Assembly: GCF_030378205.1 (NCBI RefSeq)
Contig: NZ_CP127385.1
Span: forward strand, 7,356,001-7,420,000
Length of the DNA: 64,000 nucleotides
Source: Bradyrhizobium sp. NP1
GTDB lineage: Bacteria > Pseudomonadota > Alphaproteobacteria > Rhizobiales > Xanthobacteraceae
Direction: 5' to 3'
Position 1 is the first letter of the stretch, and each line of letters starts with the position of its first letter. The position numbers and the translations under genes are program-made. A model generated the notes under the pieces. It had not been told where the DNA came from, ran no database searches, and saw only the letters and a program-made list of their open reading frames with translations. Positions 17,014-51,660 of this stretch are shown one piece after another.

Positions 17014-17180
17014 GCCAGTGGTCCGATTCTAACATTCGCCCCCACTTTGGGAGCCACATTTGCGAATGTTAGAATCAAAGGACCACTGGCGGGTTGTTGA
17101 TGCTAATGGAGCTTTGGATTTGACGTTCGCATCAAGGAATCGCGGCAATCGGGTAGCGAACGTCAAATCCGCTCCACTAG
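17014..17180. repeat. Paired imperfect palindromes upstream of glgP (element A)
   Basis: Hairpin 1: the left arm is GCCAGTGGTCC plus GATTCTAACATTCGC (17014-17039); the right arm (17062-17090) is its exact complement except for three extra bases AAA at 17077-17079; the loop is 22 bases. Hairpin 2: the left arm is CTAATGGAGC, TTT, GGATTTGACGTTCGC (17103-17130); the right arm (17156-17180) complements it without the TTT and with one mismatch; the loop is 25 bases. So each hairpin has an outer stem of about 10 bp, a three-base bulge on one arm, and an inner stem of 15 bp that ends in TTCGC. The bulge is on the right arm in the first and on the left arm in the second. Confidence 0.85.
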
Positions 17181-17274
17181 CGCAGTGCACAACCGGCGGC
17201 TCGGGCCATTCCGGCGACGCCGCCAGGCGCGTATCGTTGCAAGTGAGTCTCACGATTTGAGGAATTTGCGGGAA

Positions 17275-19797
17275 GTGCCAGACCAAGCGTTTACAGGAAC
17301 TCACCCTTCTCCGGGGCAGCCGGTCGACGAACTGGCGCTGGCCGAGATCAAGGGCGCGATCCTCGGCAAGCTTCGCCTTGCGATCGGCAAGGATGCCGGC
17401 ATGGCGACCAGGCATGACTGGTACATGGCGACAGCGCTGGCGCTGCGCGACCGCATCGTGCATCGCTGGCTGAGCGTGGAAAAGCAGAGCTATGACGCCG
17501 GCCGCAAGCGCGTCTATTACCTCAGTCTCGAATTCCTGATTGGTCGCCTCTTCACCGACGCGCTGAACAATATGGGGCTTATGCCGGTGTTCGAGGCCGC
17601 GCTCGGCGACCTCGGCGTCGGCCTCTCGGACTTGCGCAAATGCGAGCCGGATGCAGCGCTGGGCAATGGCGGGCTTGGACGATTGGCGGCCTGCTTCATG
17701 GAGAGCATGGCCACGTTGTCGATCCCCGCGATCGGCTACGGCATCCGCTACCATTTCGGCCTGTTCCGCCAGATCATCAGCCATGGCTGGCAGCAGGAAT
17801 ATCCGGACGAATGGCTGCGGCTCGGCAATCCCTGGGAATTGCAGCGGCCGGAAGTGGTCTATCTCGTGCATTTTGGCGGCAGCGTCGAGCATGTCGACGA
17901 CAAGGGCCGCGACCGCGCGATCTGGCATCCCGGCGAGACCGTGCAGGCGATGGCCTATGACACCCCGATCGTCGGTTGGCGCGGCCAGTACGTCAATGCG
18001 CTGCGGCTGTGGTCGGCGCAGTCGCCCGACCCCCTCAACCTCGATGTCTTCAATTCCGGCGACTATCTCGGCGCCAGCGCCGAGCAGGCCCGCGCCGAGG
18101 CGATCTGCAAGTTCCTCTATCCCAATGACGAAAGCCCGGCGGGGCGCGAACTGCGGCTGCGCCAGGAATATTTCTTCGTCTCGGCCTCGCTGCAGGACCT
18201 GGTGAAGCGGCACCTCTCCTCCGACGGCCAGTTGCGCAGCCTCGCCATGAAGGCCGCGGTGCAGCTCAACGACACCCATCCCAGTCTCGCGGTCGCCGAG
18301 CTGATGCGCATCCTTGTCGATCTGCACAATTTCCGCTGGGAAGAGGCCTGGAAGATCACGGTCGCCACCCTGTCCTACACCAACCACACGCTGCTGCCGG
18401 AGGCGCTCGAGACCTGGCCGGTCGAACTGTTCGAGCGGCTGTTGCCGCGACACCTGGAGATCATCTACCGCATCAACAGCATCCATCTGGCGCTTGCGGA
18501 AGCACGCTACCCCGGCGACATCGATTTCCGCGCCTCGGTCTCGCTGATCGACGAGCGCAGCGGCCGAAGGGTGCGGATGGGACAGCTCGCTTTCGTCGGC
18601 TGCCATCGCATCAACGGCGTCTCGGCGATGCATTCCGAACTGATGCAGGACACCGTGTTCCACGATCTGCATCACCTCTATCCCGGCCGCATCACCAACA
18701 AGACCAACGGCATCACCTTCCGCCGCTGGCTGATGGTCGCCAACCCGAAGCTGACGGAGCTGTTGCGGGAGATCTGCGGCGAGGCCGTGCTCGACGATCC
18801 CTCGCGGCTCGAACTCCTGGAGGCGCGCGCCAGCGACCATGCCTTCCAGCAGCAGTTCCGCAAGGTCAAGCATCACAACAAGACCATGCTGGCGCGGCTG
18901 ATCAGCGAGCGGCTCGACGTGCTGGTGGATCCGGCGGCGCTGTTCGACGTGCAGATCAAGCGCATCCACGAATACAAGCGCCAGCTCCTCAACATCCTCG
19001 AAGCGATCGCGCTCTACCAGGCGATCCGGGACGAGCCGCAGAAGGACTGGGTGCCGCGGGTGAAGATCTTCGCCGGCAAGGCGGCGGCGAGCTATCGCTT
19101 CGCCAAGCTGATCATCAAGCTGATCAACGACGTCGCCGCGATCGTCAACAACGACCCCGTGGTCGCTGGGCGGCTGAAGATCGTGTTCCTGCCCGACTAC
19201 AATGTCAGCCTCGCGGAGGTGATCATCCCGGCGGCCGATCTCTCCGAGCAGATTTCGACCGCGGGCATGGAGGCCTCCGGCACCGGCAACATGAAGCTCG
19301 CGCTCAACGGCGCGATCACCATCGGTACGCTCGACGGCGCCAACATCGAGATTCGCGACCATGTCGGGGCGGACAACATCGCGATCTTCGGCATGGAGGC
19401 GATGGACGTGACGGTCCGCCGCAAGCAGGGACTGGATGCGACCGACGCAATCCGGCGCTCGCCGCGGCTCTCCCGCGCCATCAACGCGATCGGCGCCGGC
19501 GCGTTTTCCCCGGACGATCCCGACCGCTTCGCGTCGATCGCGCACGCGCTGCGCAACCTCGACTACTACATGGTGAGTGCCGATTTCGACAGCTATCACG
19601 CGGCGCAGCGTGGCATCGACGCACGCTGGCAGGTGCAGCCGGCCTGGACCCGCGCCTCGATCCTCAATGTCGCGCGCATGGCCTTCTTCTCCTCCGACCG
19701 CACCATCCGCGAATATGCCGAGGAGATCTGGAACGTGCCGGTGCGCCCCGCGCCGACACCGACGCTGTCCGCGCAGCGGGGTCTCGCCGGCGGCTGA
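17275..19797 (+). CDS. glgP: Glycogen/starch/alpha-glucan phosphorylase
   Basis: 840 residues from the GTG at 17275, chosen because AGGAA lies ten bases before it and the conserved part starts soon after (PVDELALAEIKGAILGKL); the frame is open to a GTG at 17185 and past it into the palindromic element. The enzyme releases glucose-1-phosphate from glycogen. Hallmarks are RKRVYYLSLEFLIGR near the N-terminus, LGNGGLGRLAACF, and the pyridoxal-phosphate lysine block EASGTGNMKLALNGAITIGT (close to the lysine near residue 673). Length is typical. No other glg gene is adjacent. The 94 bases between the palindromes and the start may form an mRNA leader. Confidence 0.95.
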   Translation: MPDQAFTGTHPSPGQPVDELALAEIKGAILGKLRLAIGKDAGMATRHDWYMATALALRDRIVHRWLSVEKQSYDAGRKRVYYLSLEFLIGRLFTDALNNMGLMPVFEAALGDLGVGLSDLRKCEPDAALGNGGLGRLAACFMESMATLSIPAIGYGIRYHFGLFRQIISHGWQQEYPDEWLRLGNPWELQRPEVVYLVHFGGSVEHVDDKGRDRAIWHPGETVQAMAYDTPIVGWRGQYVNALRLWSAQSPDPLNLDVFNSGDYLGASAEQARAEAICKFLYPNDESPAGRELRLRQEYFFVSASLQDLVKRHLSSDGQLRSLAMKAAVQLNDTHPSLAVAELMRILVDLHNFRWEEAWKITVATLSYTNHTLLPEALETWPVELFERLLPRHLEIIYRINSIHLALAEARYPGDIDFRASVSLIDERSGRRVRMGQLAFVGCHRINGVSAMHSELMQDTVFHDLHHLYPGRITNKTNGITFRRWLMVANPKLTELLREICGEAVLDDPSRLELLEARASDHAFQQQFRKVKHHNKTMLARLISERLDVLVDPAALFDVQIKRIHEYKRQLLNILEAIALYQAIRDEPQKDWVPRVKIFAGKAAASYRFAKLIIKLINDVAAIVNNDPVVAGRLKIVFLPDYNVSLAEVIIPAADLSEQISTAGMEASGTGNMKLALNGAITIGTLDGANIEIRDHVGADNIAIFGMEAMDVTVRRKQGLDATDAIRRSPRLSRAINAIGAGAFSPDDPDRFASIAHALRNLDYYMVSADFDSYHAAQRGIDARWQVQPAWTRASILNVARMAFFSSDRTIREYAEEIWNVPVRPAPTPTLSAQRGLAGG

Positions 19798-20585
19798 GTT
19801 TCCGCGTTCTCGCCGCGCAGATCGCGCCCGAGTTGTTCGCATCGTACCCTCGACAACAAGAGGGCGCAGGGAATGCCGGGTGCTTTGGCGCACCCGCAGC
19901 CTCGCGTGCAGCAAAGAAAAGCACACGAGTTAGTCACCACAGGTAGGCCGCAACATCACGGCATTCCCCGCGCGATTGGTTTTAACGGTTTCCTTCGTGC
20001 TCTCCCCGGTGATCGGGCTTTCTTGTCACCGTCGTCAGCGGGTCACTACCCGCGAACTTGATGCCAGCGTCGAGACGCCAGGACCACACGACTTCGCCGT
20101 CCGCGTTGGCATCGTTCGTCTTGCGATACCGATCGCGTCCATCGCATCCCGCACCCAACGTTCGTGACGATCGCGAAGCGCCCCTCTGGATCGAGCGCAG
20201 GACGGGCGGATTGGAGCCACTGATTTGCCCGACGGCTCAAGCGGAATATTTTTCGCTTGAGGACTGGACGGCCCAAATCAGTTTGAATCGGCTCGCGAAT
20301 TTCGATCTTACGCGCAGCCGATTTTCGATCCCTTCTGTAATCCGATCCCGGAGCTCAAGCCCCCTTAGCGGCTAACCGGCGTCCGGTCCGGGGGGAGAAG
20401 CGGACGTGTTTCGGCGAAGCGGCCATGTCGCAGTTTGACCCAACTGAGACATGGGCGGCTCAAGACTTTGCGGCGCAAGCCCATCGTCTGCCTTGCGCCT
20501 AAGCGTGGTATAAGTGCCTCTATTGTATGGATCCGACCTCCAGCCGCCCAACTAATTCAGCGCGGCGTAGGAAAGGAGACCAATC
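19798..20585. other. Gene-free stretch, probable multicopy non-coding element
   Basis: No open frame here has a signal peptide, domain or ribosome site that I can defend. The part from about 19850 to 20200 (starting GAGGGCGCAGGGAATGCC, including CGGTGATCGGGCTTTCTTGTC) strongly resembles a sequence I remember as recurring in Bradyrhizobium chromosomes, where it is often mistaken for short genes. The part 20230-20270 has an inverted pair, CGGCTCAAGCGG with CGCTTGAGGAC. The end (about 20398-20450: GGCGAAGCGG, then TTTGACCCA...GAGACATGGG) resembles 22342-22386. Confidence 0.5.
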
Positions 20586-21620
20586 ATGTGGCGCAAGAGA
20601 GTGTGGCTCGTCGCTGCCCTGACCCTCAGCATCTTCGTCGCGCCGATCGCCGCCAAAGAGGGCTGGGCACAGAATCCTGGAAAGGTATATCGAGTAGGCG
20701 TGGTGCTTGTCCTCCCGCCAAATCTTCTCCCGCCTAATGCTCCGCAGCCGTCGTTTCCAGGCGGTCCGCTTGCCCGCGCGCTTCTGGATCGGCTGGCCGA
20801 CCACGGCTACATCGAGGGAAAGAACCTCGTCATCGAAGCGCGGTTCGGAGGATACGAGCGATTGGCGGAACTTGCAGCGGAGTTAGTGCGCCTCCACGTT
20901 GACGTCATCTTCACTGGCGGCACGAAGGCGAGCCGGATCGTCAGCGACGCGGTGAAGGAGACGCCGCTGGTGATCCATTCTTGCGACCCGTTCGAGCACG
21001 TCACTCGGCTCGCGCGACCAGAGGGCAACCTTACCGGAGTGACCTGCATGACTACGGAGCTGAGCCCAAAGAGGCTCGAGTTGCTCAAAGAGGCGGTCCC
21101 GAACGCGGTCCGGGTGTCCTTCCTGTCCGACCCTGACGACGCCCCGCCCGGGCTCAAACTGACGCAGGACGCTGCTCCGCGCCTGGGAATCGATCTCCAC
21201 ATCACCGACGTGCAGGCCGCGGACCGCCTGCAGACCTGGGGCGACTCCGATCTTGGGACCGCCTTGATCGCGGTCGCGAAGGAGCACCCCGACGCGTTGT
21301 TCGTCTACCCCGACCCGATCCTCATAGCGGAGCGGAAGCGGATCGCGGAGTTCGCGGTGACGAACCGCTTGCCCACGATGTTCGCGTTCCGTGAGTTCGT
21401 CGACGCTGGCGGCCTCATGTCATACGGTTCCAGCCTCGGCGAGATGGGAGCCTCGGCCGGAGAGCTGATCGCGAAGATTCTGGCCGGCACCAGACCGAGT
21501 GAGCTGCCGGTGGAGCAAGCGACGCGGTTCGAGCTGGTGATTAACCTCAAGACCGCAAGAGCGCTCGGCCTCACTATTCCACCCTCGCTGCTCGCCCGCG
21601 CCGACAAGGTGATTGAATGA
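20586..21620 (+). CDS. Orphan ABC-type substrate-binding protein (ABC_sub_bind family)
   Basis: 344 residues, with AGGAGACC before the ATG. A signal peptide of about 28 residues (ending VAPIAAKEGWAQ) precedes a two-lobed periplasmic binding fold: the first lobe begins YRVGVVLVLPPN, DHGYIEGKNLVIEAR is the family block near residue 78, and the C-terminal block SYGSSLGEMGASAGELIAKIL is typical of pfam04392. Such proteins are very numerous in Bradyrhizobium, often without transport partners, and few have known ligands. No permease or ATPase lies nearby, so its role is uncertain; it may serve a distant transporter or a sensor. The surrounding stretch 20.4-24.4 kb looks accessory. Confidence 0.88.
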   Translation: MWRKRVWLVAALTLSIFVAPIAAKEGWAQNPGKVYRVGVVLVLPPNLLPPNAPQPSFPGGPLARALLDRLADHGYIEGKNLVIEARFGGYERLAELAAELVRLHVDVIFTGGTKASRIVSDAVKETPLVIHSCDPFEHVTRLARPEGNLTGVTCMTTELSPKRLELLKEAVPNAVRVSFLSDPDDAPPGLKLTQDAAPRLGIDLHITDVQAADRLQTWGDSDLGTALIAVAKEHPDALFVYPDPILIAERKRIAEFAVTNRLPTMFAFREFVDAGGLMSYGSSLGEMGASAGELIAKILAGTRPSELPVEQATRFELVINLKTARALGLTIPPSLLARADKVIE

Positions 21621-21720
21621 GTCCGCCTTTGGGTCCTTATGCAAAGTCCGGCAACGTCCGCTTTGGCGGCCACGCCCTAAAGCTGGTGCGCAATCGCAGA
21701 CAATATGATGGGAGGGAGCG

Positions 21721-22209
21721 ATGTTGAGCACACCCTACACCACTCTAGTGTTGGCTGCTGGAATAGGTTCTCTAGCAGCAGCGGCCAATGCCGCGGAGTC
21801 CTACGATATTACAAATTGTGGAGCAAGTACGGTGACCACCGTCTCGGCTACCGAGGAAGTGACCGTTATGAGCGCTAACACCAAGGGGATCACGCGCAGC
21901 AACTCGGCGAACAAAGCGTTCGATAACGCGACGTACGAGTGCGCCAGCGTCGTGAGCGTCGCTGGCGCCCAGCGGAACGGACTCGGCTACTGCAAGTTCA
22001 TGGTCCCAGACGGCGACTTCGTCGTCGGCGAGCAGGTGCTTGACTCGACTGGTGGCGGAAAATGGAAGTTCTTACAGGGTACGGGAAAGTGGAAGGGTAT
22101 CGCGGGCGGCGGCGAATTTGTCCCGCTGACGAGTGGAAAGCCGATTGTTGCCGGGACGGGGCAGGGTTGTGGCAGGGCGACCGGTACGTACGAACTCTCA
22201 AGTAAGTGA
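21721..22209 (+). CDS. Secreted protein, probably a small beta-barrel, unknown function
   Basis: 162 residues; GGGAGGGAGCG precedes the ATG. The signal peptide ends near AAAANAAES (residue 24). The mature part has four cysteines and a second half of alternating short strands with Gly turns, GGGKWKFLQGTGKWKGIAGGGEF, the kind of sequence found in eight-stranded barrels such as allene oxide cyclase-like proteins; this comparison is a guess from pattern alone. Codon use is more AT-rich than the core genes of the window. It lies 100 bases after the orphan binding protein on the same strand and could share its transcript. Confidence 0.7.
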   Translation: MLSTPYTTLVLAAGIGSLAAAANAAESYDITNCGASTVTTVSATEEVTVMSANTKGITRSNSANKAFDNATYECASVVSVAGAQRNGLGYCKFMVPDGDFVVGEQVLDSTGGGKWKFLQGTGKWKGIAGGGEFVPLTSGKPIVAGTGQGCGRATGTYELSSK

Positions 22210-22457
22210 GACGCGCGGCCATCGCTCACCGGCCACTGATATCGCCCGAGTGAAACTCCCCGGGAATGTCCGAGTCTGGCCCGTTTGAGACATGCCGACA
22301 ACATCGAGCAATGTCCGAGTTCGAGGGCGAAGCGGAAAACATCTGCTCGGGTTGAGCTTTACCGCTGTTGACCCATTTCAGACGTGGGGCATAGCCGGAC
22401 GTCGGCCCACAATTGTGCTATATGAACATTCAATTTCCCCGAGCCCGGGGGTACATC

Positions 22458-24245
22458 TTGAGCAGCGAGCACGTGGAGCGGCGACTGGCGGCTATTCTGG
22501 CGGCGGATGTCGCGGGCTCTTGCCGCTTGATAGGGATCGACGAAGAAGGCACGCTAGCGCGACTGAAAGCTCTTAGAAAGACGCTTTTTGATCCCAAAAT
22601 CATTGATCATCACGGACGCATCGTCAAGAATACCGGGGACGGCGCTCTCGTTGAGTTCGGCAGCGTCGTAGATGCCGTACGCTGCGCCATCGAAATTCAG
22701 CGCGACATGGCCGAACAAAATATCGATGTACCGCAGGTCAAGCGGATCGAATTTCGCATCGGCATTCACGTCGGTGATATTATCATCGAAGACGATGATA
22801 TCTTTGGTGATGGCGTCAATATTGCAGTGCGTCTCGAAGGGATCGCAGAACCGGGTGGTGTTAGCATTTCCGACGATGCTCATCGGCAGGTTCGGGGCAA
22901 GGTTGAGAGCACCTTAGAGGATATGGGTTCGCAATCCTTGAAGAATATCGCCGAACCAATGCGGGCTTGGCGCGTGCGCATCGGCCCAAGCTCTTCGCCA
23001 GCAACAAAACCGCCGACCGAGACTGCGCAGCCGCTCGCTCTCCCCGACAAACCCTCCATCGCTGTTCTGCCATTCACCAACATGAGCGGTGATCCGGAAC
23101 AGGACTACTTCGCCGATGGAATGGTGGAGGAGATCATTACCGCGCTGTCGCATTTCCGCCAGCTCTTCGTGATCGCCCGCAATTCGAGCTTCACATACAA
23201 AGGGCGCGCCGTCGACGTGAAGCAGATCGGGCGCGAGCTTGGGGTGCGCTACGTGTTGGAAGGTAGCGTTCGCAAATCGGCCAACCGGGTGCGCATCACG
23301 GGACAGCTTGTCGACACCGCCACTGGAGCCCATCTTTGGGCAGACCGGTTTGATGGTGGTCTCAGCGACATCTTCGATCTGCAGGACCAGGTGACTGAGA
23401 GCGTTGTCGGGGCGATCGCGCCAGCGGTGGAAAAAGCCGAGATCGAGCGTGCCAGGCGCAAGCCGACCGAGAGTCTCGACGCCTATGCCCTCTATTTACG
23501 CGGCTTGGCCGCGTTCTATCGGTTTGGCAACCGGCAAGCGAACGAGGAGGCATTGCGCCTGTTCAACAGCGCGATCGAGCTCGACCCGGATTTTGCCTCC
23601 GCCTACGGTCGTGCCGCCTCTTGCTACGTCATTGCCAGGAACAATGGCTGGTTTTCAGGCACTCCGAACGAGATTGCCGAAGTGACGAGGCTCGCCCAAC
23701 GGGCGGTTGAGTTGGGCAAGGATGACGCGATGGCGCTGGCCGCCAGCGGGTTTGCATTGGTGATTGTTGCTCGCGATCTCGAAGTAGGCGCCGCCTTGAT
23801 CGATCGCGCGCTTGTGCTCAATTCCAATTTGGCCGAGGCATGGAATTTCGGCGGCTGGGTAAAAATCTGGCTCGGCGAGCCGGAAACGGCGCTCGAGCGC
23901 TTCGCACGTGCCATGCGCCTGAGCCCACTTGGTCCGTGGGTGGCAGGGATGCGAGGCGGGACCGCGGTTGCACATTTCTTCCTGGGTCGCAATGACGAGG
24001 CGGCATCCTGGGCGGCAATGGCATTGCAGGACAATCCGGACGTTCCATTTGGATTACGCATCGCTGCCGCAAGCAATGCAATGGCCGGACGGCCGGAGCA
24101 AGCACATAAGGCAATGGCTCGACTGCGACAACTGAATCCCGCGCTGCGGATTTCCACTCTCAAAGACGTGGCGGGCCCTTATCGGCGTGCTGAAGACCTC
24201 TCGCGATTGGAAGAAGCATTGCGGCGAGCCGGGCTGCCCGAATGA
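22458..24245 (+). CDS. Class III adenylate/guanylate cyclase with TolB-like and TPR domains
   Basis: About 595 residues from the TTG at 22458, which follows CCGGGGG and gives the family start SSEHVERRLAAILAADVAG; an ATG at 22422 is the alternative. The cyclase domain (about 5-175) keeps the first metal Asp in AADVAG, the second in KNTGDGALVEF, and the Asn/Arg of DGVNIAVRLEG, so it is probably active. A TolB-N-like domain (SIAVLPFTNMSGDPEQDYFADGM at about 205, of which only the start is quoted) and TPR repeats up to the C-terminus follow. There is no membrane segment. Many paralogues of this architecture occur in Bradyrhizobium; the signals they sense are unknown. It makes cAMP or cGMP; which one cannot be told. 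Confidence 0.88.
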   Translation: MSSEHVERRLAAILAADVAGSCRLIGIDEEGTLARLKALRKTLFDPKIIDHHGRIVKNTGDGALVEFGSVVDAVRCAIEIQRDMAEQNIDVPQVKRIEFRIGIHVGDIIIEDDDIFGDGVNIAVRLEGIAEPGGVSISDDAHRQVRGKVESTLEDMGSQSLKNIAEPMRAWRVRIGPSSSPATKPPTETAQPLALPDKPSIAVLPFTNMSGDPEQDYFADGMVEEIITALSHFRQLFVIARNSSFTYKGRAVDVKQIGRELGVRYVLEGSVRKSANRVRITGQLVDTATGAHLWADRFDGGLSDIFDLQDQVTESVVGAIAPAVEKAEIERARRKPTESLDAYALYLRGLAAFYRFGNRQANEEALRLFNSAIELDPDFASAYGRAASCYVIARNNGWFSGTPNEIAEVTRLAQRAVELGKDDAMALAASGFALVIVARDLEVGAALIDRALVLNSNLAEAWNFGGWVKIWLGEPETALERFARAMRLSPLGPWVAGMRGGTAVAHFFLGRNDEAASWAAMALQDNPDVPFGLRIAAASNAMAGRPEQAHKAMARLRQLNPALRISTLKDVAGPYRRAEDLSRLEEALRRAGLPE

Positions 24246-26999: not shown

Positions 27000-27017
27000 G
27001 GATTTCGGCCGCCCGGC

Positions 27018-27380: not shown

Positions 27381-27413
27381 GCCGTGCCCTTCCCCGACCA
27401 ACCGCGATCGCCA

Positions 27414-27469
27414 CCAGCGTGGCGGGTTCAGGCGTCCGCGAATTGCGAACTGCGGTATCAGGACACTAG
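27414..27469. repeat. Collapsed remnant of the paired-palindrome element (element D)
   Basis: The right part (27445-27469) matches the right arm of hairpin 2 of element B at 22 of 25 positions and ends in GGACACTAG. The left part (27414-27439, CCAGCGTGGCGGGTTCAGG onward) matches the hairpin-1 arm of element B almost as well, with one extra G and no TTT. Only a few bases lie between, so the inner arms and loops of a B-type pair appear to be deleted. It lies 33 bases upstream of the minus-strand gene that starts at 27380. Confidence 0.5.
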
Positions 27470-27584: not shown

Positions 27585-27610
27585 CGATTTCCATCGCATC
27601 GAGATTCCCC

Positions 27611-34638: not shown

Positions 34639-34725
34639 AGGGTGGGCAAAGGCGCGCTTGCGCCGTGCCTAGCGTCAATACCCGACGGCTCAAATGGTGG
34701 GCGCGCTTTCGCTTTGCCCACCCTC
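34639..34725. repeat. Interspersed palindromic repeat, TAGGGTGGGC type
   Basis: AGGGTGGGCAAAGGCGCGC (from 34639) faces GCGCGCTTTCGCTTTGCCCACCCT (to 34725, 20 of its bases pair), with GGCGCGCTTGCGCC as an inner hairpin. Same family as 16465-16559 and 1105-1180. It follows the HPr stop by 15 bases and precedes the 3' end of the convergent glycosyltransferase gene, so it may work as a shared transcript end. Confidence 0.72.
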
Positions 34726-43168: not shown

Positions 43169-43326
43169 CTAGTGTGGCGGTTCGGAAGTTCGCGCCATTG
43201 TCGCCGCGAGTTCGTCATGCGGACTTCTGAACCAAAGCCACACTAGTTCAATAGGTGTCCCTTCGATTCCGAAGTTCGCAAACGAGGGGCCGCAGAATGA
43301 TGCGAACTTCGGAATCGGGACACTAG
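43169..43326. repeat. Paired imperfect palindromes upstream of mepA (element B)
   Basis: Hairpin 1: the left arm is CTAGTGTGGC plus GGTTCGGAAGTTCGC (43169-43193); the right arm (43219-43246) complements it with AAA inserted at 43234-43236 and two transitions. Hairpin 2: the left arm is TAGGTGTCCC, TTC, GATTCCGAAGTTCGC (43252-43279); the right arm (43302-43326) complements it without the TTC. The two are five bases apart. The layout equals that of element A: about 10 bp outer stem, three-base bulge on the right arm of the first and the left arm of the second, 15 bp inner stem ending in TTCGC. It ends 23 bases before the mepA start. Confidence 0.88.
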
Positions 43327-43349
43327 TCTTTTGCTCCCAGAGTGATCCG

Positions 43350-44321: not shown

Positions 44322-44511
44322 GCAAGGAAACAGGCCGGCAAATAGGCGCATCGCGCGCATTTTATTTCGGTCACAAACGGCGCTACAATAATCCGGCGCG
44401 GCGCCGTAAGCGCCCCTCTCGACCGGGACGATGGTCCCGAAATGCTTTCACCGCCATCCCAGCCGGCCCGCGCGGCGCGTGTCACGCGGCCCAACCTCGC
44501 GAGGAAGACTC

Positions 44512-44721
44512 ATGCGCATCAGTGCACGCAACCAGATCAAGGGCACCGTCATCGACGTGAAGAAGGGCGCGACCACGGCGCATGTCCGCGTCGACATCGG
44601 CGGCGGCCAGACCGTGACCTCGGCGATCACCAACGAGGCGGTCGACGAGCTCGGCATCAAGGCCAAGGATCACGTCGTCGTGGTCATCAAGGCCTCCGAC
44701 GTGATGATCGCGGTGGACTGA
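44512..44721 (+). CDS. Stand-alone molybdate-binding protein (Mop/TOBE)
   Basis: 69 residues, one Mop (TOBE) domain: RISARNQIKGTVIDVKKGA, of which RNQIKGTV and the later IKASDVMIAVD are the anion-binding landmarks. GAGGAAGAC stands before the ATG. Such molbindins assemble as hexamers and store or buffer molybdate in the cytoplasm. It is the first gene of a molybdate locus: a secreted protein starts three bases after its stop and modABC follow. Because the ModC encoded downstream lacks its own C-terminal Mop domain, this protein may supply the missing sensing part in trans; that is inference. Confidence 0.92.
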   Translation: MRISARNQIKGTVIDVKKGATTAHVRVDIGGGQTVTSAITNEAVDELGIKAKDHVVVVIKASDVMIAVD

Positions 44722-44724
44722 AAG

Positions 44725-45234
44725 ATGCGCCGCGTTCTCCCGATCGCGCTGCTGCTCGCAGGCTCCGCATCCGCGCTCGCCGCGGAGGAGCCGAGCGGCT
44801 GCGACAAGTTCAAGTGGAATATCGAGCCGGCGCGCGCGGCGCTGACGGCGCCAAACCGCCCCGCGCTCGCCTCGGGCAGCGAACAGGCGGTGCTGCCTTC
44901 TTCGGCGATCACGCTGTCGCTGGTCGCCCCGCTCGATGCGAAGCTGCCGACCCCGCCGGAGCGCGCGCCAAAGGACGGCACCTTCGCCGGCTTTCTCGCG
45001 TTCAAGAATCCGCCCAAGGCCGGGCTTTACACCGTGAGCCTTTCGGCCGGCGCGTGGATCGACGTGGCGCAGGACGGGCATTTCCTCAAGCCCAAGGCTT
45101 TCAGCGGCGCCACCGACTGCGCGGGCATCCGCAAGACCATCAAGGTCGAGCTGGCGGCAAGCCCGTTCGTGCTGCAAGTCTCAAGCGTGCGGGAAGGCGC
45201 GATCTCGGTCGCCATCCTGCCCGCGGCAGAATGA
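44725..45234 (+). CDS. Periplasmic protein of unknown function in the molybdate locus
   Basis: 169 residues starting three bases after the mop stop. A signal peptide (RRVLPIALLLAGSASALAA, cleavage near residue 20) is clear. The mature part has two cysteines (SGCDKFKW and TDCAGIRKT), a Pro/Ala-rich first third and beta-rich rest (TFAGFLAFKNPPKAGLYTVS, SAGAWIDVAQDGHFL). I do not know the family. The close spacing argues that it is co-expressed with mop, and 169 bases separate it from modA. A role in molybdate acquisition is suggested by position only. Confidence 0.75.
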   Translation: MRRVLPIALLLAGSASALAAEEPSGCDKFKWNIEPARAALTAPNRPALASGSEQAVLPSSAITLSLVAPLDAKLPTPPERAPKDGTFAGFLAFKNPPKAGLYTVSLSAGAWIDVAQDGHFLKPKAFSGATDCAGIRKTIKVELAASPFVLQVSSVREGAISVAILPAAE

Positions 45235-45403
45235 GGGCTTTTGCCGGCTGAAGCGGCCTGTTATGGTTTTTCGCGCGACATTCCAACGGCCGTAAGCCTT
45301 AAAGGAATACCGGAACGGCGCTTCCGCCCGTCGCTTTCCGTTCAGCCAACGCCTGATTGGCGCGCAGCTCCTGCGCGCGCCGATCCGCATCGGAGCGCTT
45401 TTG

Positions 45404-46189
45404 ATGACCAGACTTGCCGGAATTGTTGCCGCCCTCGTGATCCTTTGCGGGTCCGCCGCGCCGCCTGCCCTCGCGCAGGACAAGACGCTGACCGTATTTG
45501 CCGCCGCCTCGATGAAAAACGCGCTGGACGAGATCGACAATGCTTTCACCGCCAGGACCGGCGTCAAGGTCAATGCGAGCTATGCCGCCAGCTCGACGCT
45601 TGCCAAGCAGATCGAGCAGGGCGCGCCGGCCGACATCTTCGTCTCCGCCGACACCGACTGGATGGACTATGCGGTTTCCAAGAAGACCATCAACGAGCCA
45701 ACGCGGGCGAACCTGCTCGGCAACAGCATCGTGCTGATCGCGCCGAAGGATTCGAAGATCGACAACGTCGCGATCGCTCCCGGCTTCGACCTCGCCAAGC
45801 TCGCCGGCGACGGCAGGATCGCGACCGGCGATGTCAAGTCGGTTCCGGTCGGCAAATACGCCAAGGCGGCGCTGGAAAAGCTCGGCGCGTGGCAAGCGGC
45901 CGAACCGAAATTCGCGATGGCCGAAAGCGTGCGCGCGGCGCTGACGCTGGTGGCGCGCGGCGAAGCCGGCCTCGGCATCGTCTATGCGACCGACGCCAAG
46001 GTCGAGCCCGGCGTCAAGATCGTCGGCACCTTCCCGGCCGATTCCCATCCTCCGATCATCTATCCGGTAGCGGCCACCACGACCGCAAAGCCCGAGGCAA
46101 AGGAATATCTCGACTATTTGCACTCGTCGGCGGCCAAGGCGGTGCTGGAGAAGTACGGCTTCAACTATCTCGTCAAGCCGTCGACCTGA
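45404..46189 (+). CDS. modA: Molybdate ABC transporter, substrate-binding protein
   Basis: 261 residues; GGAG lies eight bases before the ATG at 45404. A signal peptide (TRLAGIVAALVILCGSA, cleavage after PALAQ) exports it. The mature start DKTLTVFAAASMKNALDEI is that of ModA, where the Ser of AAAS and the second Ser of ASSTLAKQIEQGAP bind the oxyanion; the third block is FVSADTDWMDY. It captures molybdate (and tungstate) in the periplasm and hands it to ModB. Operon with modB and modC. No convincing ModE site was recognised in the 169 bases upstream. Confidence 0.96.
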   Translation: MTRLAGIVAALVILCGSAAPPALAQDKTLTVFAAASMKNALDEIDNAFTARTGVKVNASYAASSTLAKQIEQGAPADIFVSADTDWMDYAVSKKTINEPTRANLLGNSIVLIAPKDSKIDNVAIAPGFDLAKLAGDGRIATGDVKSVPVGKYAKAALEKLGAWQAAEPKFAMAESVRAALTLVARGEAGLGIVYATDAKVEPGVKIVGTFPADSHPPIIYPVAATTTAKPEAKEYLDYLHSSAAKAVLEKYGFNYLVKPST

Positions 46190-46199
46190 CCTCTCCGAC

Positions 46200-46895
46200 G
46201 TGTTCGATATCTCGCCCACGGAATGGACGGCGATCCTGCTCTCGCTCAAGGTCGCCGTCGTCGCAACGCTGGTGGCGACCCCCTTCGGCATCGCGCTCGC
46301 CTGGCTCCTGGCGCGGCGCAGCTTCTGGGGCAAGTCCGCGCTCGATGCGCTGGTGCATCTGCCGCTGGTGCTGCCGCCGGTCGTGACCGGCTACCTGCTG
46401 CTGCTCAACTTCGGCAGGCGCGGCGCGCTCGGCGCCTGGCTTGCGGAGCATCTCGGCATCGTGTTCGCGTTCCGCTGGACCGGCGCGGCGCTGGCCTGCG
46501 GCGTGATGGCGTTTCCGCTTCTGGTGCGCCCGATCCGGCTTTCGATCGAGGCGGTGGACCGACGGCTCGAGCAGGCCGCCGAGACGCTTGGCGCCGCGCC
46601 CTGGCAGGTGTTTGCCACCGTGACGCTGCCGCTGGCGCTGCCCGGCGTGCTCGCTGGCATGGTGCTCGGCTTTGCCAAGGCGATCGGCGAATTCGGCGCG
46701 ACCATCACCTTCGTCTCCAACATCCCCGGCGAGACGCAGACGATCTCGTCGGCGATCTATGCCCTGATCCAGACGCCGGATGGCGACGCGGCCGCGCTGC
46801 GGCTGGTGGTCGTCTCGATCGTGATCGCGATGGCCGCGCTGATCGCGTCCGAATGGTTCGCGCGGCGCGCGCTGTCGCGCATGCACGGAAACTAG
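46200..46895 (+). CDS. modB: Molybdate ABC transporter, permease
   Basis: 231 residues from a GTG ten bases after the modA stop. Five to six membrane segments. The EAA loop that docks with the ATPase is EQAAETLGAAPWQVFATVTLPLALPG (Glu-Gln-Ala-Ala ... Gly, first 20 residues suffice), and the start DISPTEWTAILLSLKVAVV is typical for ModB. The gate region FAKAIGEFGATITFVSNIPGETQT is conserved among molybdate and sulfate permeases. Two copies form the channel with two ModC. Confidence 0.95.
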   Translation: MFDISPTEWTAILLSLKVAVVATLVATPFGIALAWLLARRSFWGKSALDALVHLPLVLPPVVTGYLLLLNFGRRGALGAWLAEHLGIVFAFRWTGAALACGVMAFPLLVRPIRLSIEAVDRRLEQAAETLGAAPWQVFATVTLPLALPGVLAGMVLGFAKAIGEFGATITFVSNIPGETQTISSAIYALIQTPDGDAAALRLVVVSIVIAMAALIASEWFARRALSRMHGN

Positions 46896-46898
46896 GCG

Positions 46899-47576
46899 AT
46901 GCTGCGCGTCGACGTCGAGAAAGCGCTTGGTGAATTCTCGCTCGCGGCCTCCTTCGCGAGCGAAGGCCGCGTCACCGGGCTGTTCGGCGCCTCAGGCGCC
47001 GGCAAGACCTCGCTGGTCAACATGATCGCCGGGCTGCTGCGGCCCGATCGCGGGACCATCGTCGTCGACGGCGAGACGCTGGACGACACCGCGGCCGGCA
47101 TCCACGTGCCGCCCTATCGCCGCCGCATCGGCTATGTGTTCCAGGATGCGCGGCTGTTTCCGCATCTCGATGTCAGGCAGAACCTCGACTACGGGCGGCG
47201 CATGAACCGCCTTGCCGATGATCCCGCGCAGCGCAAGCGCGTCACCGAGCTGCTCGACATCGATCACCTGATGGATCGCCGGCCGGGCAAACTGTCCGGC
47301 GGCGAGCGCCAGCGCGTCGCGCTCGGCCGGGCGCTATTATCGAAACCGCGGCTGTTGCTGCTCGACGAGCCCCTGGGCTCGCTCGACGAGGGACGCAAGG
47401 TGGAAATCCTGCCCTACCTCGTGCGGCTGCGCGACGAGGGCGGCATTCCCATGGTCTATGTCAGCCATGACGCGGCCGAGCTACGCCAGCTCGCGACGCA
47501 GATCGTGCTGCTTCAGCGCGGACGCGTCACGTCCTTTGGCAGCGTCAAGGTGCTGCCGGGCACAGCGCCGCAGTAA
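46899..47576 (+). CDS. modC: Molybdate ABC transporter ATPase, short form without Mop domain
   Basis: 225 residues, three bases after modB. Walker A is GASGAGKTS, the Q-loop VFQDARLFPHLDV is ModC-like, the signature is LSGGERQRVALGRALL, Walker B is LLLLDEPLGSLDE, and the switch is YVSHDA. The protein ends soon after the ATPase domain (QRGRVTSFGSVKVLPGTAPQ). The well-known ModC of E. coli has about 350 residues because of a C-terminal Mop regulatory domain that binds molybdate and shuts transport; this part is missing and no reading-frame remnant follows. The free Mop at 44512 may take its place, or feedback may be absent. Confidence 0.94.
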   Translation: MLRVDVEKALGEFSLAASFASEGRVTGLFGASGAGKTSLVNMIAGLLRPDRGTIVVDGETLDDTAAGIHVPPYRRRIGYVFQDARLFPHLDVRQNLDYGRRMNRLADDPAQRKRVTELLDIDHLMDRRPGKLSGGERQRVALGRALLSKPRLLLLDEPLGSLDEGRKVEILPYLVRLRDEGGIPMVYVSHDAAELRQLATQIVLLQRGRVTSFGSVKVLPGTAPQ

Positions 47577-47643
47577 TCGCGGGCGCGGCCCAAAGCGCGA
47601 CGGGGATCGGGTTGAATCACGATTCGCGCTTTAGCTTTTGATT

Positions 47644-47720
47644 GAGCATGATCTCCGCGCAAACGCGTTTTCGCGTTTGTCGCGACGGAAAACCGCTGCA
47701 CACTTTTCCGGATCATGCGC
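47644..47720. repeat. GAGCATGATC palindromic repeat, copy 2 (long form)
   Basis: GAGCATGATC (47644-47653) and GATCATGCGC (47711-47720) enclose GGAAAA...TTTTCC as in copy 1, with an added hairpin GCGCAAACGCG / CGCGTTTGTCGC between. The last base is the last base of the stop codon of the minus-strand PepSY gene. Copy 1 at 15621-15670 has the same relation to a minus-strand gene. Confidence 0.72.
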
Positions 47721-47974
47721 TAGCGGTTGACCCACAGCACGTCGCCGGTCGCAGCATCGACCGCCACTTCCATCCAGCGGCCGGAACGGTCGCGCCCTTC
47801 GATCTCCCATTTGTCGCCTTCGAACTCGGTATGGGACACGCTCATCAGGCCGATATCGTTGGCGACATCGAGCGCGTCCTCCAGCGACAGCCGGCCGGCC
47901 GAATCATAGGCGCTGGCGGGCGCGGCGACGGCGAGCGCCACGGCGGCGAAGATCGGCAGGATATATTTTCGCAT
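47720..47974 (-). CDS. Small periplasmic PepSY-like protein
   Basis: 84 residues from the ATG at 47972-47974, with GGAGG seven bases upstream. A signal peptide (RKYILPIFAAVALAVAAPA, cleavage after ASA near residue 22) is followed by one PepSY-like domain: LSLEDALDVANDIGLM, HTEFEGDKWEIEGRDRSG and MEVAVDAATGDVLWV, where W-E-I-E-G and V-D-x-x-T-G-x-V are characteristic. Such proteins are thought to inhibit proteases or bind cations in the periplasm. The stop overlaps a palindromic repeat. No operon partner. Confidence 0.85.
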   Translation of the reverse strand: MRKYILPIFAAVALAVAAPASAYDSAGRLSLEDALDVANDIGLMSVSHTEFEGDKWEIEGRDRSGRWMEVAVDAATGDVLWVNR

Positions 47975-48159
47975 GGGAACCTCCTGGTCGAAGCCATTGT
48001 CGCGCGTCTGCACCGCGCAACGCTTCCTAAAACCCGTTGCGGCGCCGCGCGTTCCAGCCTGCGCGCACGGCAGGGTTGCCAAAAAACCTCGGCAATCGCG
48101 GCGGCTTCCTGGCCGCAATCGGGCATGCGCGCCGCAAATATGGCGAAACGGTCAGCGGC

Positions 48160-49953
48160 TCAGATGCCGGCCACCGACGCCCAGAGATCGGCGAGCTTGC
48201 GCCTGTACATCTGCATGCGCGTCTCGGGCTTGCGCGCCTCCTCGTCCTCCGGCAGGCGCAGGCCGACGACATTGACCCGGCCACCGCCAAGGCTGCGCGC
48301 CACCAGCACGATGGTGTCGAGGTCGACGGTGGCACCCTCCTTCGGCGCGTGATCGAGATGGATGTCGAAGTAATCCGACAGCGTCAGCTTGGCCTGTTCC
48401 GGATCGAGCTTCACGCCATAGATCTCGGCGAGCTCGCTCAGCGTATGCTCGCCGGACACCACGAAGTCGCCGAGCAGATGCGGGTCGGGCGCGGTGCTCG
48501 GCGGCATGTCGACGAAGAAGCGGTCCAGCGACTCGGCCTTTTCCGGCGGCGCCAGCAGATAGAGATAGTCGCCGGGCGCGATCGGATCGGCCTCCGCGGG
48601 CGAGAGAATGTTCTCGTTGCGGATCACCAGCGTCGGCTTCGACCAGGACGGGATCAGCCCGCGGCGGAAATACAGGCTCTTCGGCCGCACCGGATAGCCG
48701 ACCAGCTGCTGCTCGAGCTGGCCCGGCAGATCCAGCTCGACGCGGCGCGGACCGCGGTCGGTGCGCGGCAGCGCCACATGCAGCCGCCGCGCCGCCGGCC
48801 CCAGCGTCCAGCCCTGCAGCAGCAGCGAGATGATCACGACGACGAAGGCGACGTCGAAATAGAGATAGGCCTTGGACAGCCCGACCAGCATCGGGATCGA
48901 GGCAAGGAAGATCGCCACCGCGCCGCGCAGGCCGGTCCAGGCGATGAACAGCTTTTCCCGCCAGGAAAAGCGGAACGGCGCGAGGCAGACGAACACCGCG
49001 AGCGGCCGCGCCAGCAGCATCAGGACCAGCGCGACGAGGACCGCCGGTCCGACGCTCGAGCCGAGCCGCTGCGGCGACACCAACAGGCCGAGCAGCACGA
49101 ACATCACGATCTGCGCCAGCCAGGTCGCGGCGTCGAGGAAGGTCACCACCGAGTTGTGCGCGCGGGTCGGCCGGTTGCCGATGATGATGCCGGCGAGATA
49201 GACGGCGAGAAAGCCCGACGCGTGCACGATCTGCGCCGCGCCGAAGATCACGAGCGCCGCCGTCGCCACGAACGGTGCGTGCAGGCCCTGCGGCAGCGCC
49301 ACCTTGTTCAGCGCGAGCACCACCATGCGGCCGCCGATCACGCCGATGATCGCGCCCAGCACGGCTTCCTGCAGGAACTCCATCACCACATGGCCGGGCG
49401 TGCTGTTGCCGATCGAGATGAACTCGACCAGCATCAAGGTGAGGAAGATCGCGAACGGGTCGTTGGTGCCGGATTCCGCCTCCAGCGTCGCGCCGACGCG
49501 CGGCCGCAGCCGCAGGCCCTGGGTATGCACCAGAAGAAAGACCGCGGCGGCATCGGTCGAGGCCACCACCGCGCCGACCAGAAGCGCCTCGGACCAGTTC
49601 AGGTCGAGCGCCAGCTTCGCGAACGGCGCCGTGACCAGGGCGGTCAAGAGCACGCCGACGGTCGCCAGCACCATCGAAGGCGCCAGGACCGCGCGGATGC
49701 TCTGGAAGCGGGTGCGCAGCCCGCCATCGAACAGGATCAGCGCCAGCGCCACCGACCCCACCAGATAGGTGGTCCGCACGTCGTCGAACTGCAGGTGACC
49801 GGGCCCGGAATCGCCGGCCAGCATGCCGATCAGGAGGAAGACCAGCAGCAGGGGGGCGCCGAAGCGCAGCGCGAGCAGGCTCGACAGGATACCGGCCATG
49901 ACCAGTGCCGCCCCCAGGAGGATGGCTATGCTGACCGAATCAAGAGACGCCAT
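48160..49953 (-). CDS. Potassium/proton antiporter, NhaP2/CvrA type
   Basis: 597 residues from the ATG at 49951-49953; a TTG seven codons upstream is possible. The CPA1 transport domain (about 1-385) has twelve or more membrane segments with the essential Asp-Asp-like block LLVGAVVASTDAAAVFLLV and LEAESGTNDPFAIFLTLM; the second half is cytoplasmic with a TrkA-C domain (about 400-480) and a CorC_HlyC transporter-associated domain (about 500-590). This arrangement is that of NhaP2, which expels K+ and sometimes Na+ in exchange for protons and helps cells survive osmotic change. The divergent MscS gene, 207 bases away, has a complementary osmotic role. Confidence 0.92.
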   Translation of the reverse strand: MASLDSVSIAILLGAALVMAGILSSLLALRFGAPLLLVFLLIGMLAGDSGPGHLQFDDVRTTYLVGSVALALILFDGGLRTRFQSIRAVLAPSMVLATVGVLLTALVTAPFAKLALDLNWSEALLVGAVVASTDAAAVFLLVHTQGLRLRPRVGATLEAESGTNDPFAIFLTLMLVEFISIGNSTPGHVVMEFLQEAVLGAIIGVIGGRMVVLALNKVALPQGLHAPFVATAALVIFGAAQIVHASGFLAVYLAGIIIGNRPTRAHNSVVTFLDAATWLAQIVMFVLLGLLVSPQRLGSSVGPAVLVALVLMLLARPLAVFVCLAPFRFSWREKLFIAWTGLRGAVAIFLASIPMLVGLSKAYLYFDVAFVVVIISLLLQGWTLGPAARRLHVALPRTDRGPRRVELDLPGQLEQQLVGYPVRPKSLYFRRGLIPSWSKPTLVIRNENILSPAEADPIAPGDYLYLLAPPEKAESLDRFFVDMPPSTAPDPHLLGDFVVSGEHTLSELAEIYGVKLDPEQAKLTLSDYFDIHLDHAPKEGATVDLDTIVLVARSLGGGRVNVVGLRLPEDEEARKPETRMQMYRRKLADLWASVAGI

Positions 49954-50160
49954 GCACGTCGAAAATCCCTGCAAATCGCTGCAATTGCATCCTTATCGTC
50001 GCCACACTTCGACGCCAACCGATTTCTCGCCGGTTGTGGCAATGTGCCCGCATCGCCGGCCTCCACACCCGCCCCGGCGCATCGTATCGATGGCGCCAGC
50101 CCCATGATTGTGGGATTTTCCGCCCCGTTCCGCCCGTGCGAATCGCAACGAGACAGTGAG

Positions 50161-51474
50161 ATGGACATCGACCTCAAGGACGTCCTCGAATTCCTGCAGA
50201 TGGCCGCGCGCTCGGTCGGCGCCGAGGTAACCTCGCCATGGTTCTACCTGCAGGTCGGCATGGTGCTGGCCGGCGCCGGCCTCGCTTTTGCGATCAGCGC
50301 CGCCATCCGTGCCCGGATCGACCTCACGACCCTGGGGATGGGCTGGCCCACTGCGCTGCGGCGCTTCATGCGGGTGCTGGTCGACAGCGCCCCGACCGCG
50401 GTATTCGCGCTGCTGATGGCGCTGACGCGCATCATCATGGTGATGTCGACTTGGCCGAGCCGCAGCTATCTGCTGTCGGTCGCCGCGAACCTGGCGCTGG
50501 CCTGGCTCGCCATCGGGCTCGTGACCTCGGGCATCCGCAACGCCTTCATGGTCCGTGTCATCTCGCTGTCGGCCTGGCTGGTGGCGGCGCTCTCGATCCT
50601 CGGCCAGCTCGACCCGACCATCGAAGCACTCGATTCGGTTTCGGTGGTGCTTGGCGGCTTGCGGCTGACGCCGCTGCTCCTGATCAAGCTCGGCCTGCTG
50701 CTGATGGTGGCGCTGTGGCTGACCAACATCGTCTCCAATTTCCTGGAGAACCGGATCACGCGGTCCAGCGACCTGACGCCCTCGGTGCAGGTGCTGCTGA
50801 TCAAGATGATCCGCGTCGGCCTGATGATCTTCGCGGTCACGGTGGCCATGAGCGCGGTCGGCATCAACCTGTCGGCGCTGGCGATCTTCTCCGGCGCGGC
50901 CGGCGTCGGCATCGGTTTCGGCCTGCAGAAGATCGTCGCCAATTTCATCAGCGGCATCATCCTGCTCGCCGACAAGTCGGTGAAGCCGGGCGACCTCGTC
51001 ACCATCGGCGACAGCCAGGGGCGGATCAGCGCGATGAAGACGCGCTACATCTCGGTCGCCGCCGGCGACGGCCGCGAGTTCCTGATCCCCAACGAGGACC
51101 TGGTGACCCAGAAGGTCACCAACTGGACCTATACCGACAAGAACACGCTGGTGAAGATCGCCTTCGGCACCAACTACGACGCTGATCCCCGGCTGGTGTG
51201 CAAGCTGGCGGCAGGGGTTGCCGCCGCCGCGCCGCGCGCGATCAAGGGCAAGCCGCCGAACTGCATCCTCACCGAGTTCGCCGAGGCCGGCATGAAATTC
51301 TCGCTCACGTTCTGGATCGCCGACCCCGACGGTATGGACAACGTGAAGAGCGACGTGATGCTGGCGCTGTGGGACGCGTTCAAGCACGAGGGCATCCGCG
51401 TGCCCTATCCGGTGCGCGAGCTCAGGGTGCGGGGCGCGCTGCCGGTTGAGACCGTGGTGGAGGCTTCGAGCTGA
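50161..51474 (+). CDS. Mechanosensitive channel, MscS family (enlarged)
   Basis: 437 residues from the ATG at 50161; an ATG at 50104 would add 19 residues and cannot be excluded. About six membrane segments: four extra ones precede the three-segment MscS core. The pore helix is GAAGVGIGFGLQKIVANFISG, of which GVGIGFGLQ and the F-I-S-G end match family positions, followed by the beta domain DKSVKPGDLVTIGDSQGRI and REFLIPNEDLVTQKVTNWT. The channel opens under membrane tension and lets solutes out after hypo-osmotic shock. It is divergent from the K+/H+ antiporter, so shared control of the pair is possible. Confidence 0.92.
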   Translation: MDIDLKDVLEFLQMAARSVGAEVTSPWFYLQVGMVLAGAGLAFAISAAIRARIDLTTLGMGWPTALRRFMRVLVDSAPTAVFALLMALTRIIMVMSTWPSRSYLLSVAANLALAWLAIGLVTSGIRNAFMVRVISLSAWLVAALSILGQLDPTIEALDSVSVVLGGLRLTPLLLIKLGLLLMVALWLTNIVSNFLENRITRSSDLTPSVQVLLIKMIRVGLMIFAVTVAMSAVGINLSALAIFSGAAGVGIGFGLQKIVANFISGIILLADKSVKPGDLVTIGDSQGRISAMKTRYISVAAGDGREFLIPNEDLVTQKVTNWTYTDKNTLVKIAFGTNYDADPRLVCKLAAGVAAAAPRAIKGKPPNCILTEFAEAGMKFSLTFWIADPDGMDNVKSDVMLALWDAFKHEGIRVPYPVRELRVRGALPVETVVEASS

Positions 51475-51545
51475 AATACGGCAATTTACGGTGTTCCACT
51501 GCCGCAAGCCCGGCTTGCACTGGACGCCCCGATCATTAAATTAGG

Positions 51546-51660
51546 CGAGTGTGGCGGTTCGGAGCCCCACTGCATTAATAAGTTGCTAGTGTCCTTCGAT
51601 TCCGAAGTTCGCAAACGAGGTATCCGCAGAACGATGCGAACTTCGGAATCGGGACACTGG
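51546..51660. repeat. Paired palindromes upstream of map, first one truncated (element C)
   Basis: Only the left arm of hairpin 1 remains (51546-51564, CGAGTGTGGCGGTTCGGAG), equal to the same arm in element B; the right arm is lost. Hairpin 2 is complete: left arm CTAGTGTCC, TTC, GATTCCGAAGTTCGC (51586-51612), right arm (51636-51660) complementary without TTC and with one C more. Loop and arms match element B closely (AAACGAGG...CCGCAGAA.GAT). It ends 37 bases before the map start. Confidence 0.85.

Follow-up and report, generated by a model that had tools for sequence, protein, structure and literature searches.

A 64,000-nucleotide stretch of Bradyrhizobium sp. NP1 (NZ_CP127385.1, positions 7,356,001 to 7,420,000; hereafter the window) carries three related elements, A, B and C, built from bulged hairpins whose stems differ in sequence and whose two arms have changed together, which raises the question of whether such structures are kept for their fold or are traces of something that moves. 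A full element, about 165 bp long, consists of two hairpins joined by a linker, with CTAG at either end. In each hairpin an outer stem of about 10 pairs is set off from an inner stem of about 15 pairs by a few extra bases on one arm, and the inner stem closes a loop of about 22-26 bases. This twin-hairpin family is real and is explained in kind: its outer ends resemble those of IS630 insertion sequences, and the hairpin pairs are very probably non-autonomous elements, similar to miniature inverted-repeat transposable elements (MITEs), that IS630-family (Tc1/mariner) transposases mobilize in trans.

The plan that a sequence-only reading had recognized in A, B and C is not due to chance, since at least 150 hairpins of the same design were found in this genome (a 7.71-Mb chromosome), where all 150 candidates scored matched the covariance model. 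DNA searches of the genome with A and B gave at least 55 and at least 53 matches, respectively, these counts being lower bounds because 40 of 184 candidates were scored for A, 40 of 151 for B and 150 of 3404 for the model. The copies form two subfamilies, A-type and B-type, with plan and linker in common and different stems, and a search for just the A-type outer end, allowing up to one mismatch, gave 135 occurrences (reversed control, 0). Single ends that were inspected in this genome looked like internally deleted or decayed copies. The covariance model, R1, was built from 27 hairpins chosen out of 118 for diversity and intactness; it includes related copies and excludes the five intact hairpins of the window, all of which it recovered. 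A search of Rfam at gathering scores gave no match within the window.

Each of the three elements folds more stably than any of 200 shuffles (z = -8.8 for A, -9.3 for B and -6.0 for C). In an alignment of 59 full elements (59 of the 60 fetched loci; L055 was dropped as partial), pairing holds in 97.7% of stem cells, both sides have changed in 25 of the 50 pairs and 390 cells carry double changes. None of 500 shuffles, which ignore kinship among the copies, reached these covariation values, and sliding the arms against each other abolished the signal, so that covarying stems, as originally described, are confirmed by the covariance model and by shuffle statistics; for the 27 hairpins of R1, 32 of 500 shuffles came up to the observed value in one of the five covariation measures, that of further pair types. 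The bulk of the double changes is the difference between the two subfamilies, within which double changes to standard pairs number 16 (A) and 32 (B) and one-sided changes 37 (A) and 74 (B). Divergence among copies is 2-5% in stems and 12-20% in loops and linker, and is equal in outer and inner arms (2.1 vs 2.6% in A; 4.8 vs 5.0% in B). Mismatched cells of the G.T type (45) and the A.C type (34) are about equally frequent, thus no single RNA strand is favoured and folding at the RNA level is not indicated. Selection on an RNA is rejected on this ground; the covariation itself is real and is seen as well where different species share an orthologous site (two such sites).

The sequence-only reading took the folded form itself to be the object of selection and named, as a result that would refute it, a match to the ends of a known insertion sequence; the outer ends do give such a match, to the IS630 family. 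When the hairpin of a Caulobacter ginsengisoli copy was searched against 72,556 plasmids, a single record was returned, weak when taken alone (E 0.1), in which 24 of the first 25 bases are identical and the match coincides exactly with the end of an IS630 transposase gene on a Roseomonas mucosa plasmid; the opposite end of that copy gave no match beyond AGTGTCC. Relatives of this transposase are present in 629 plasmid records at E 1e-40, and 11 copies were examined (L341-L351), ten of them fetched and the eleventh that of R. mucosa. Eight of these have CTAG at both ends, which read CTAG-N12-GAAGTTCG or a variant of it; the copy of B. barranii has CTAA and CTAG, and the copies of R. mucosa and R. 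gilardii yielded a 3' end only. The ends of the Bradyrhizobium sp. CB82 copy are CTAGTGTCCCGAGTCACAAGTTCGC and CTAGTGTCCTGAACCAGAAGTTCGC, the right end in B. barranii (CTAGTGTGGTGGACCAGAAGTTCGC) is near the right arm of B-type elements, and the Rhodovastum, Komagataeibacter and Acidovorax ends are similar to those of CB82 and B. barranii, whereas Sphingobium and S. meliloti have CTAGTCACCTG or a close variant instead. The same ends also occur on Bradyrhizobium-type chromosomes, for example in three copies in genome G015, two of which have both ends, measure 1196 bp and lie in different flanks. Assignment of the transposases to IS630 follows from NCBIfam NF033545 for two of them (E 2e-81 and 1e-81) and Pfam DDE_3 for a third.

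The outer arms of the element are in register with these IS630 ends, 12 bases separating CTAG from the GAAGTTCG core in both. Eleven outer arms, hand-chosen from the lineages found, agree with the best of 19 IS ends, likewise hand-chosen and nearly all of the TGTCC type, at 18-25 of 25 bases (shuffled mean 11-12; top of 2000 shuffles 17-19), and nine of the arms (20-25 of 25) exceed their own top shuffle.

The element is mobile and has recently spread in at least one species. Genome G010 has seven copies that differ at 1-3 of 165 bases and lie in unrelated flanks. Empty sites were sought with the joined flanks in five relatives that are about 90% identical at one gene; the query had CTAG at the joint, the letters read in the relatives being their own. 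At four of the seven sites, at least one relative has a single CTAG across both flanks: L076 (three relatives, with TTAG in two more), L077 (one relative), L079 (two relatives, with CTAA in a third) and L080 (one relative, with CTAA, TTAA or TTAG in four). At L074 there was a match on one flank plus CTAG, at L078 one relative gave one flank plus CTAG and four others read TAG or GTCAG across, and at L075 the alignment was ambiguous. None of the eight relatives that align across the site of element B (29 examined, 71-75% identity) carries that element, five of them reading CTAG and three TTAG. Filled sites are flanked on both sides by CTAG, either whole or decayed. Taken together, the ends matching IS630, the near-identical copies in G010 and the empty CTAG sites indicate MITE-like passengers of IS630.

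The target itself is scarce, with 23 CTAGs observed in the window vs 67.3 expected, and IS630 is reportedly, by the title of a 1991 paper by Tenzen and Ohtsubo, partial to TA within CTAG. Nested and tandem copies are located in the CTAGs of older copies, and two tandem arrays of three elements (L334 and L335; G000:C1:43000-43800 and 2255800-2256800) are what would be expected if elements insert at a CTAG that bounds an earlier copy. A single long open frame is met at 85 of the 182 element boundaries (none at 69, more than one at 28), and in 48 of these 85 the TAG of the CTAG is the stop codon of that frame, the other two frames accounting for 15 and 22; the control, all window CTAGs on both strands, gave 6, 5 and 5 in the three frames.

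ISY100 shows TA targeting of the IS630 type and cut-and-paste transposition with duplication of the TA (PMC2170065). By analogy, an IS630 transposase would cut the outer ends of the element and paste it into the TA inside a CTAG, the TA being duplicated in the process. After insertion the stems stay paired and conserved at the two old sites compared, and the host may tolerate them or use them as 3'-end structures.

The bulges, which the earlier reading had described as mirror images within a pair, prove to be general and obey one rule, extra bases on the inner ends only. A net excess of bases lies on the inner arm in 247 of 250 hairpins (2-4 bases in 227), on the outer arm in one and on neither in two; the set consists of 118 hairpins from the alignment of this genome, 118 from GTDB genomes (60 of 81 matches delimited, two of the same name leaving 59 pairs) and 14 from G010. 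IS630 ends have the spacing of the outer arms, and the extra bases would increase the distance between the inner CTAG and the core bound by the transposase at that end, which would put the inner ends out of register and leave them uncut, so that the two hairpins travel as one unit. We tentatively propose, at somewhat less than even chances, that the element is a composite passenger with a built-in lock, in which two minimal IS630 passengers lie abreast and an insert of a few bases throws each inner end off its spacing; with the outer ends alone in use, the two hairpins would spread together; the Caulobacter CcrM-associated intergenic repeats (CIR) may have the same design, and the hairpins would then be kept by selection at the 3' ends of genes.

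Several points weigh against movement by IS630 or against parts of the scheme. The A-type arms, including those of element A, are the weakest in the comparison of ends (18 of 25) and equal their top shuffle or fall one short of it, and the 19 ends leave out the IS630 groups with TCACC, TCATC, TGTTC or TACCC ends. Duplication of TA and duplication of CTAG look alike in the site data, and the view that the inner offset may block cutting is drawn from spacing. Co-occurrence with a partner is also poor: no relative of the CB82 IS630 transposase at E 1e-30 was found in the window genome, G186, G260, G261 or G156, all of them rich in elements, and G002, G009, G014 and G021 have such relatives, yet the model found no element there. 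Intact IS630 copies in G010 are only of other groups (with ends such as TCATC), along with one decayed copy with a TGTCC end, and the outer end of the seven recent copies was found nowhere else in G010 at three mismatches or fewer, thus no autonomous copy with the same ends was seen there. Elsewhere, neither relative nor element was present in G001, G003, G008 and G022, and where element-rich genomes do have a relative, its copies are intact in G015, in pieces in G203 and, in G025, limited to a single close but partial one. Loss of the partner following each burst could explain this, as could the action of a more distant enzyme on the elements. A 1.25-kb candidate for an autonomous copy in G186 (4448213 to 4449461) turned out to consist of two separate elements on either side of a 311-codon frame. 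When the open reading frames within 1.2 kb of elements were clustered, no transposase was recognized by eye among the 45 largest clusters, in which no family search was made.

The sequence-only reading had likened the pairs to doublets of repetitive extragenic palindromes (REP) mobilized by REP-associated tyrosine transposases (RAYT) and suggested looking for a linked Y1 transposase. Such REP doublets, or bacterial interspersed mosaic elements (BIME), would move as single-stranded hairpins by a RAYT or IS200/IS605 (Y1) enzyme, the bulge serving as a strand mark, and the mirror-image pairs, bulged stems, tetranucleotide at the foot and many copies all fit; the bulges of REP are described as mattering for TnpA-REP (PMC8266576), the window genome has two Y1 genes, and four of six other genomes searched have them as well. 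In that six-genome search, however, no Y1 gene was found in the complete genomes G010, with its recent copies, and G186, with its many copies, and the two Y1 genes of the window genome sit between GTAG-type repeats (GTAGGGTGGGC...GTGCCCACC) of another family, so that the likeness to RAYT-mobilized doublets fails and the Y1 link is rejected. The covariance model gave no match at the two Y1 loci (L061 and L062), the foot of the hairpins is CTAG or decayed CTAG and neither GTAG nor CGTC, and the ends match IS630, all of which makes this origin very improbable. Hardly more credible is passage with an insertion sequence family of the IS5 type that duplicates 4 bp of CTAG: the plasmid searches gave IS630 as the only annotated element with these ends, and a taste for TA within CTAG is, as noted, reportedly a property of IS630 itself. 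In favour of that origin, the empty sites have a single CTAG, with TTAG, CTAA or TTAA in some relatives, and MITEPsy1 inserts at CTAG or YTAA (PMC3189936).

Movement by IS630 leaves the question of why the stems stay paired. One explanation, which we regard as unlikely to be the primary one, is that the structure is kept for the host, as a transcription end, a stabilizer of mRNA 3' ends or a DNA-protein site, and that dispersal is secondary. At two orthologous sites stems change far less than unpaired positions. At one, shared by three species, G015 compared with either of the others has 47 shared pairs with no one-sided and 2 two-sided changes, while 15-17 of 71-72 unpaired positions have changed, and the other two species differ at no stem position and at 8 of 76 unpaired ones. 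At the other, which we take from the open frames to be a fliQ/fliR site, two species have 2 one-sided and 2 two-sided changes in 50 pairs and 20 of 75 unpaired positions changed, and the outer stems no longer resemble an IS end, with pairing kept. The 48 of 85 single-frame boundaries that fall on a TAG stop codon also speak for a host role, as does the linker, which is close to the consensus for integration host factor (IHF), WATCAANNNNTTR: in GTDB copies, 41 of the 71 linkers that could be delimited (out of 80 loci) have one mismatch or fewer, vs 1.2% of shuffles, and in the window genome 31 of 59 do, vs 2% of shuffles. The copies are related, thus this likeness is a lead only. Against a host role as the main cause stand the recent spread and empty sites, which mark a mobile element, and the lack of strand preference in the mismatches; moreover, the orthologous comparison covers two sites and was restricted to pairs folded in all rows, which favours conservation, and the excess at stop codons may reflect only the rarity of CTAG and the harm of insertion inside genes. 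Palindrome repair by template switching between the arms, without selection on the fold, is a slightly better but still doubtful explanation of the covariation. Repair could leave changes of both sides to a standard pair inside a single subfamily (16 of the 54 changed cells in A and 32 of the 107 in B), and variants with both arms made equal, such as the hairpin at G186 2732068, whereas it would not by itself slow the pace of change, and stems differ far less among copies than loops and linker. The conservation of orthologous stems may reflect either selection on the fold or repair combined with constraint, two loci being too few to tell these apart. In G018 (L073), full elements at 2522-2688 and 3471-3636 lie on either side of an apparent fliR in a flagellar cluster; the first has lost its CTAG, and both outer stems pair with new sequence.

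The family extends well beyond this genome. Among 60 genomes (80 candidates per genome) the model matched 18, namely the window genome and 17 of 35 others of the genus, and it matched none of the 24 genomes from other families of the order. Genus-wide, 167 of 265 genomes matched, a lower bound at 18 candidates per genome and stricter filters (G028 matched in the former search and is missing from the latter); that this genus is Bradyrhizobium is indicated by named loci such as L174, which has the G010-type element. The exact 25-base end pattern, with 24 bases fixed, occurs in at least 115 stretches of GTDB genomes, and the 80 listed, in which the searched left end is present by construction, are all alphaproteobacterial or labelled Proteobacteria only; the hosts listed include Bradyrhizobium, Afipia, Nitrobacter, Rhodoplanes, Pseudolabrys, Hyphomicrobium, Caulobacter, Phenylobacterium, a Rhizobium and a metagenome-assembled genome (MAG) of the Acetobacteraceae. 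Among the GTDB matches that did not resolve into two hairpins, some run off a contig end, and four (L188, L205, L214 and L230) are apparently short forms that keep both outer ends. The partner hairpin depends on the lineage and differs in both arms. In Hyphomicrobium and Hyphomicrobiaceae MAGs (L202, L206 and L215) the linker is reversed relative to the hairpins when compared with Bradyrhizobium, and the hairpins seem swapped. A hybrid at L316 2214-2370 (G186:C1:4448213-4448369) joins an A-type left hairpin to an unrelated right hairpin, CAGTGCCGC-TTT-CCATTTGAGGTTCCT, exactly on a TAG stop codon, and from this hybrid the hairpins seem to be exchangeable modules. Of the plasmid searches with whole elements, two gave no match and another gave 2 records with relatives of the element; one plasmid match (H2) is positioned under an annotated gene. 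A phage search gave no matches. Five IMG/VR viral contigs (L336-L340) contain the element end and are possible vehicles or misassigned host DNA.

Within the window (Table 1), element B lies in the opposite orientation to A, has a shortened linker and includes G.U pairs in one stem. Element C had been described as one surviving hairpin with a three-base bulge on its left arm; the surviving hairpin and the arm agree with our analysis, the bulge has two bases, and a remnant of the partner persists from 51546. A single outer arm elsewhere in the window is a remnant, left over from a related element or from an IS630-type end.

Table 1. Hairpin elements and other repeats located in the window (positions count from its first nucleotide).
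Feature	Position	Strand	Description	Basis
Element A, left hairpin	17015..17089	+	outer arm CCAGTGGTCC-GATTCTAACATTCGC; extra AAA 17077-17079 on right (inner) arm	sequence, fold, covariance model
Element A, linker	17090..17102	+	13 bp; 3 mismatches vs IHF site	
Element A, right hairpin	17103..17180	+	inner arm CTAATGGAGC-TTT-GGATTTGACGTTCGC; TTT 17113-17115 on left arm; outer arm ends in CTAG	
Element B, right-type hairpin	43169..43246	-	extra AAA 43234-43236 on right (inner) arm	sequence, fold, covariance model
Element B, left-type hairpin	43252..43326	-	3 extra bases on left (inner) arm; outer end CTAG 43323-43326	
Element C, remnant of right-type hairpin (middle lost) and linker	51546..51585	-		sequence, fold
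Element C, intact left-type hairpin	51586..51660	-	2 extra bases on inner arm	sequence, fold, covariance model
Single outer arm with CTAG, without partner	27445..27469	-	CTAGTGTCCTGATACCGCAGTTCGC on - strand; repeat family D4	
GTAG-type REP copies	16469-16555, 34639-34724		GGGTGGGCAAAG...GTGCCCACC; the type that flanks both Y1 (RAYT-like) genes	
Long imperfect palindrome	6028-6117		starts CGTCGTGCCCGGGC; probably CGTC-type Bradyrhizobium repeat; many similar palindromes in relatives	
Weak covariance-model match	63287-63359		23 bits, E 0.004, GC 0.73; probably chance	

The IS630 copies that share the outer 25-bp ends, the 12-base spacing from CTAG to the core and, in most copies, the CTAG flanks come mainly from Alphaproteobacteria (plasmids of Bradyrhizobium sp. 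CB82, B. guangxiense, B. barranii, Roseomonas and Komagataeibacter) and also from the betaproteobacterium Acidovorax; they are about 1.2 kb long with a transposase gene (1196-1214 bp in the five measured), whereas the element is 165 bp, has no such gene and consists of two hairpins. Among known small repeats, the closest are the CIR repeats (Chen and Shapiro, 2003, via PMC2229807 and PMC10969869), which might be kin. Compared by description only, both are alphaproteobacterial and have two arms with a linker, a GANTC site and TA at the termini, but CIR repeats are about 110 bp with GANTC at the loop, and in the element GANTC lies in the stem beside the bulge (by eye, in the left stems of most aligned copies). 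CIR repeats are also characterized by lying only between genes, whereas one plasmid match of the element lies, as noted, under an annotated gene. In the same two sources the duplication made by CIR is marked as unknown and its mobility described as unclear. Correia, RUP and ERIC, MITEs that target TA, are likewise small with inverted ends and TA termini, although they form one stem from both ends (PMC2229807), whereas each half of the element folds alone. YPAL/RU-2 of Yersinia resembles the element in being palindromic, about 168 bp long and accompanied by empty sites, and differs in being enterobacterial, with duplications of 3-26 bp and no TA at the termini (PMC2229807). REP/BIME with RAYT are also inverted pairs of bulged hairpins in many copies, but carry a GTAG tag and a linked Y1 transposase, neither of which was found for the element. 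The palindromic Bradyrhizobium repeats Br-REP1, Br-REP2, GTAG and CGTC are apparently short units whose sequences are other than those of the element (PMC5082802, PMC3733652).

The full-text literature searched describes neither the element nor a link between IS630 and two-armed repeats, and either may be in print in subscription papers, which fell mostly outside that search. Our data thus provide a likely mobilizer for a widespread and apparently unnamed repeat of the Alphaproteobacteria, found in Bradyrhizobium, Afipia, Hyphomicrobium, Caulobacter, Phenylobacterium and others, and put the question of how CIR-type two-armed repeats move within reach of a direct test. They also call for caution, as covarying hairpins with strong statistics can be the ends of transposons and not RNAs.

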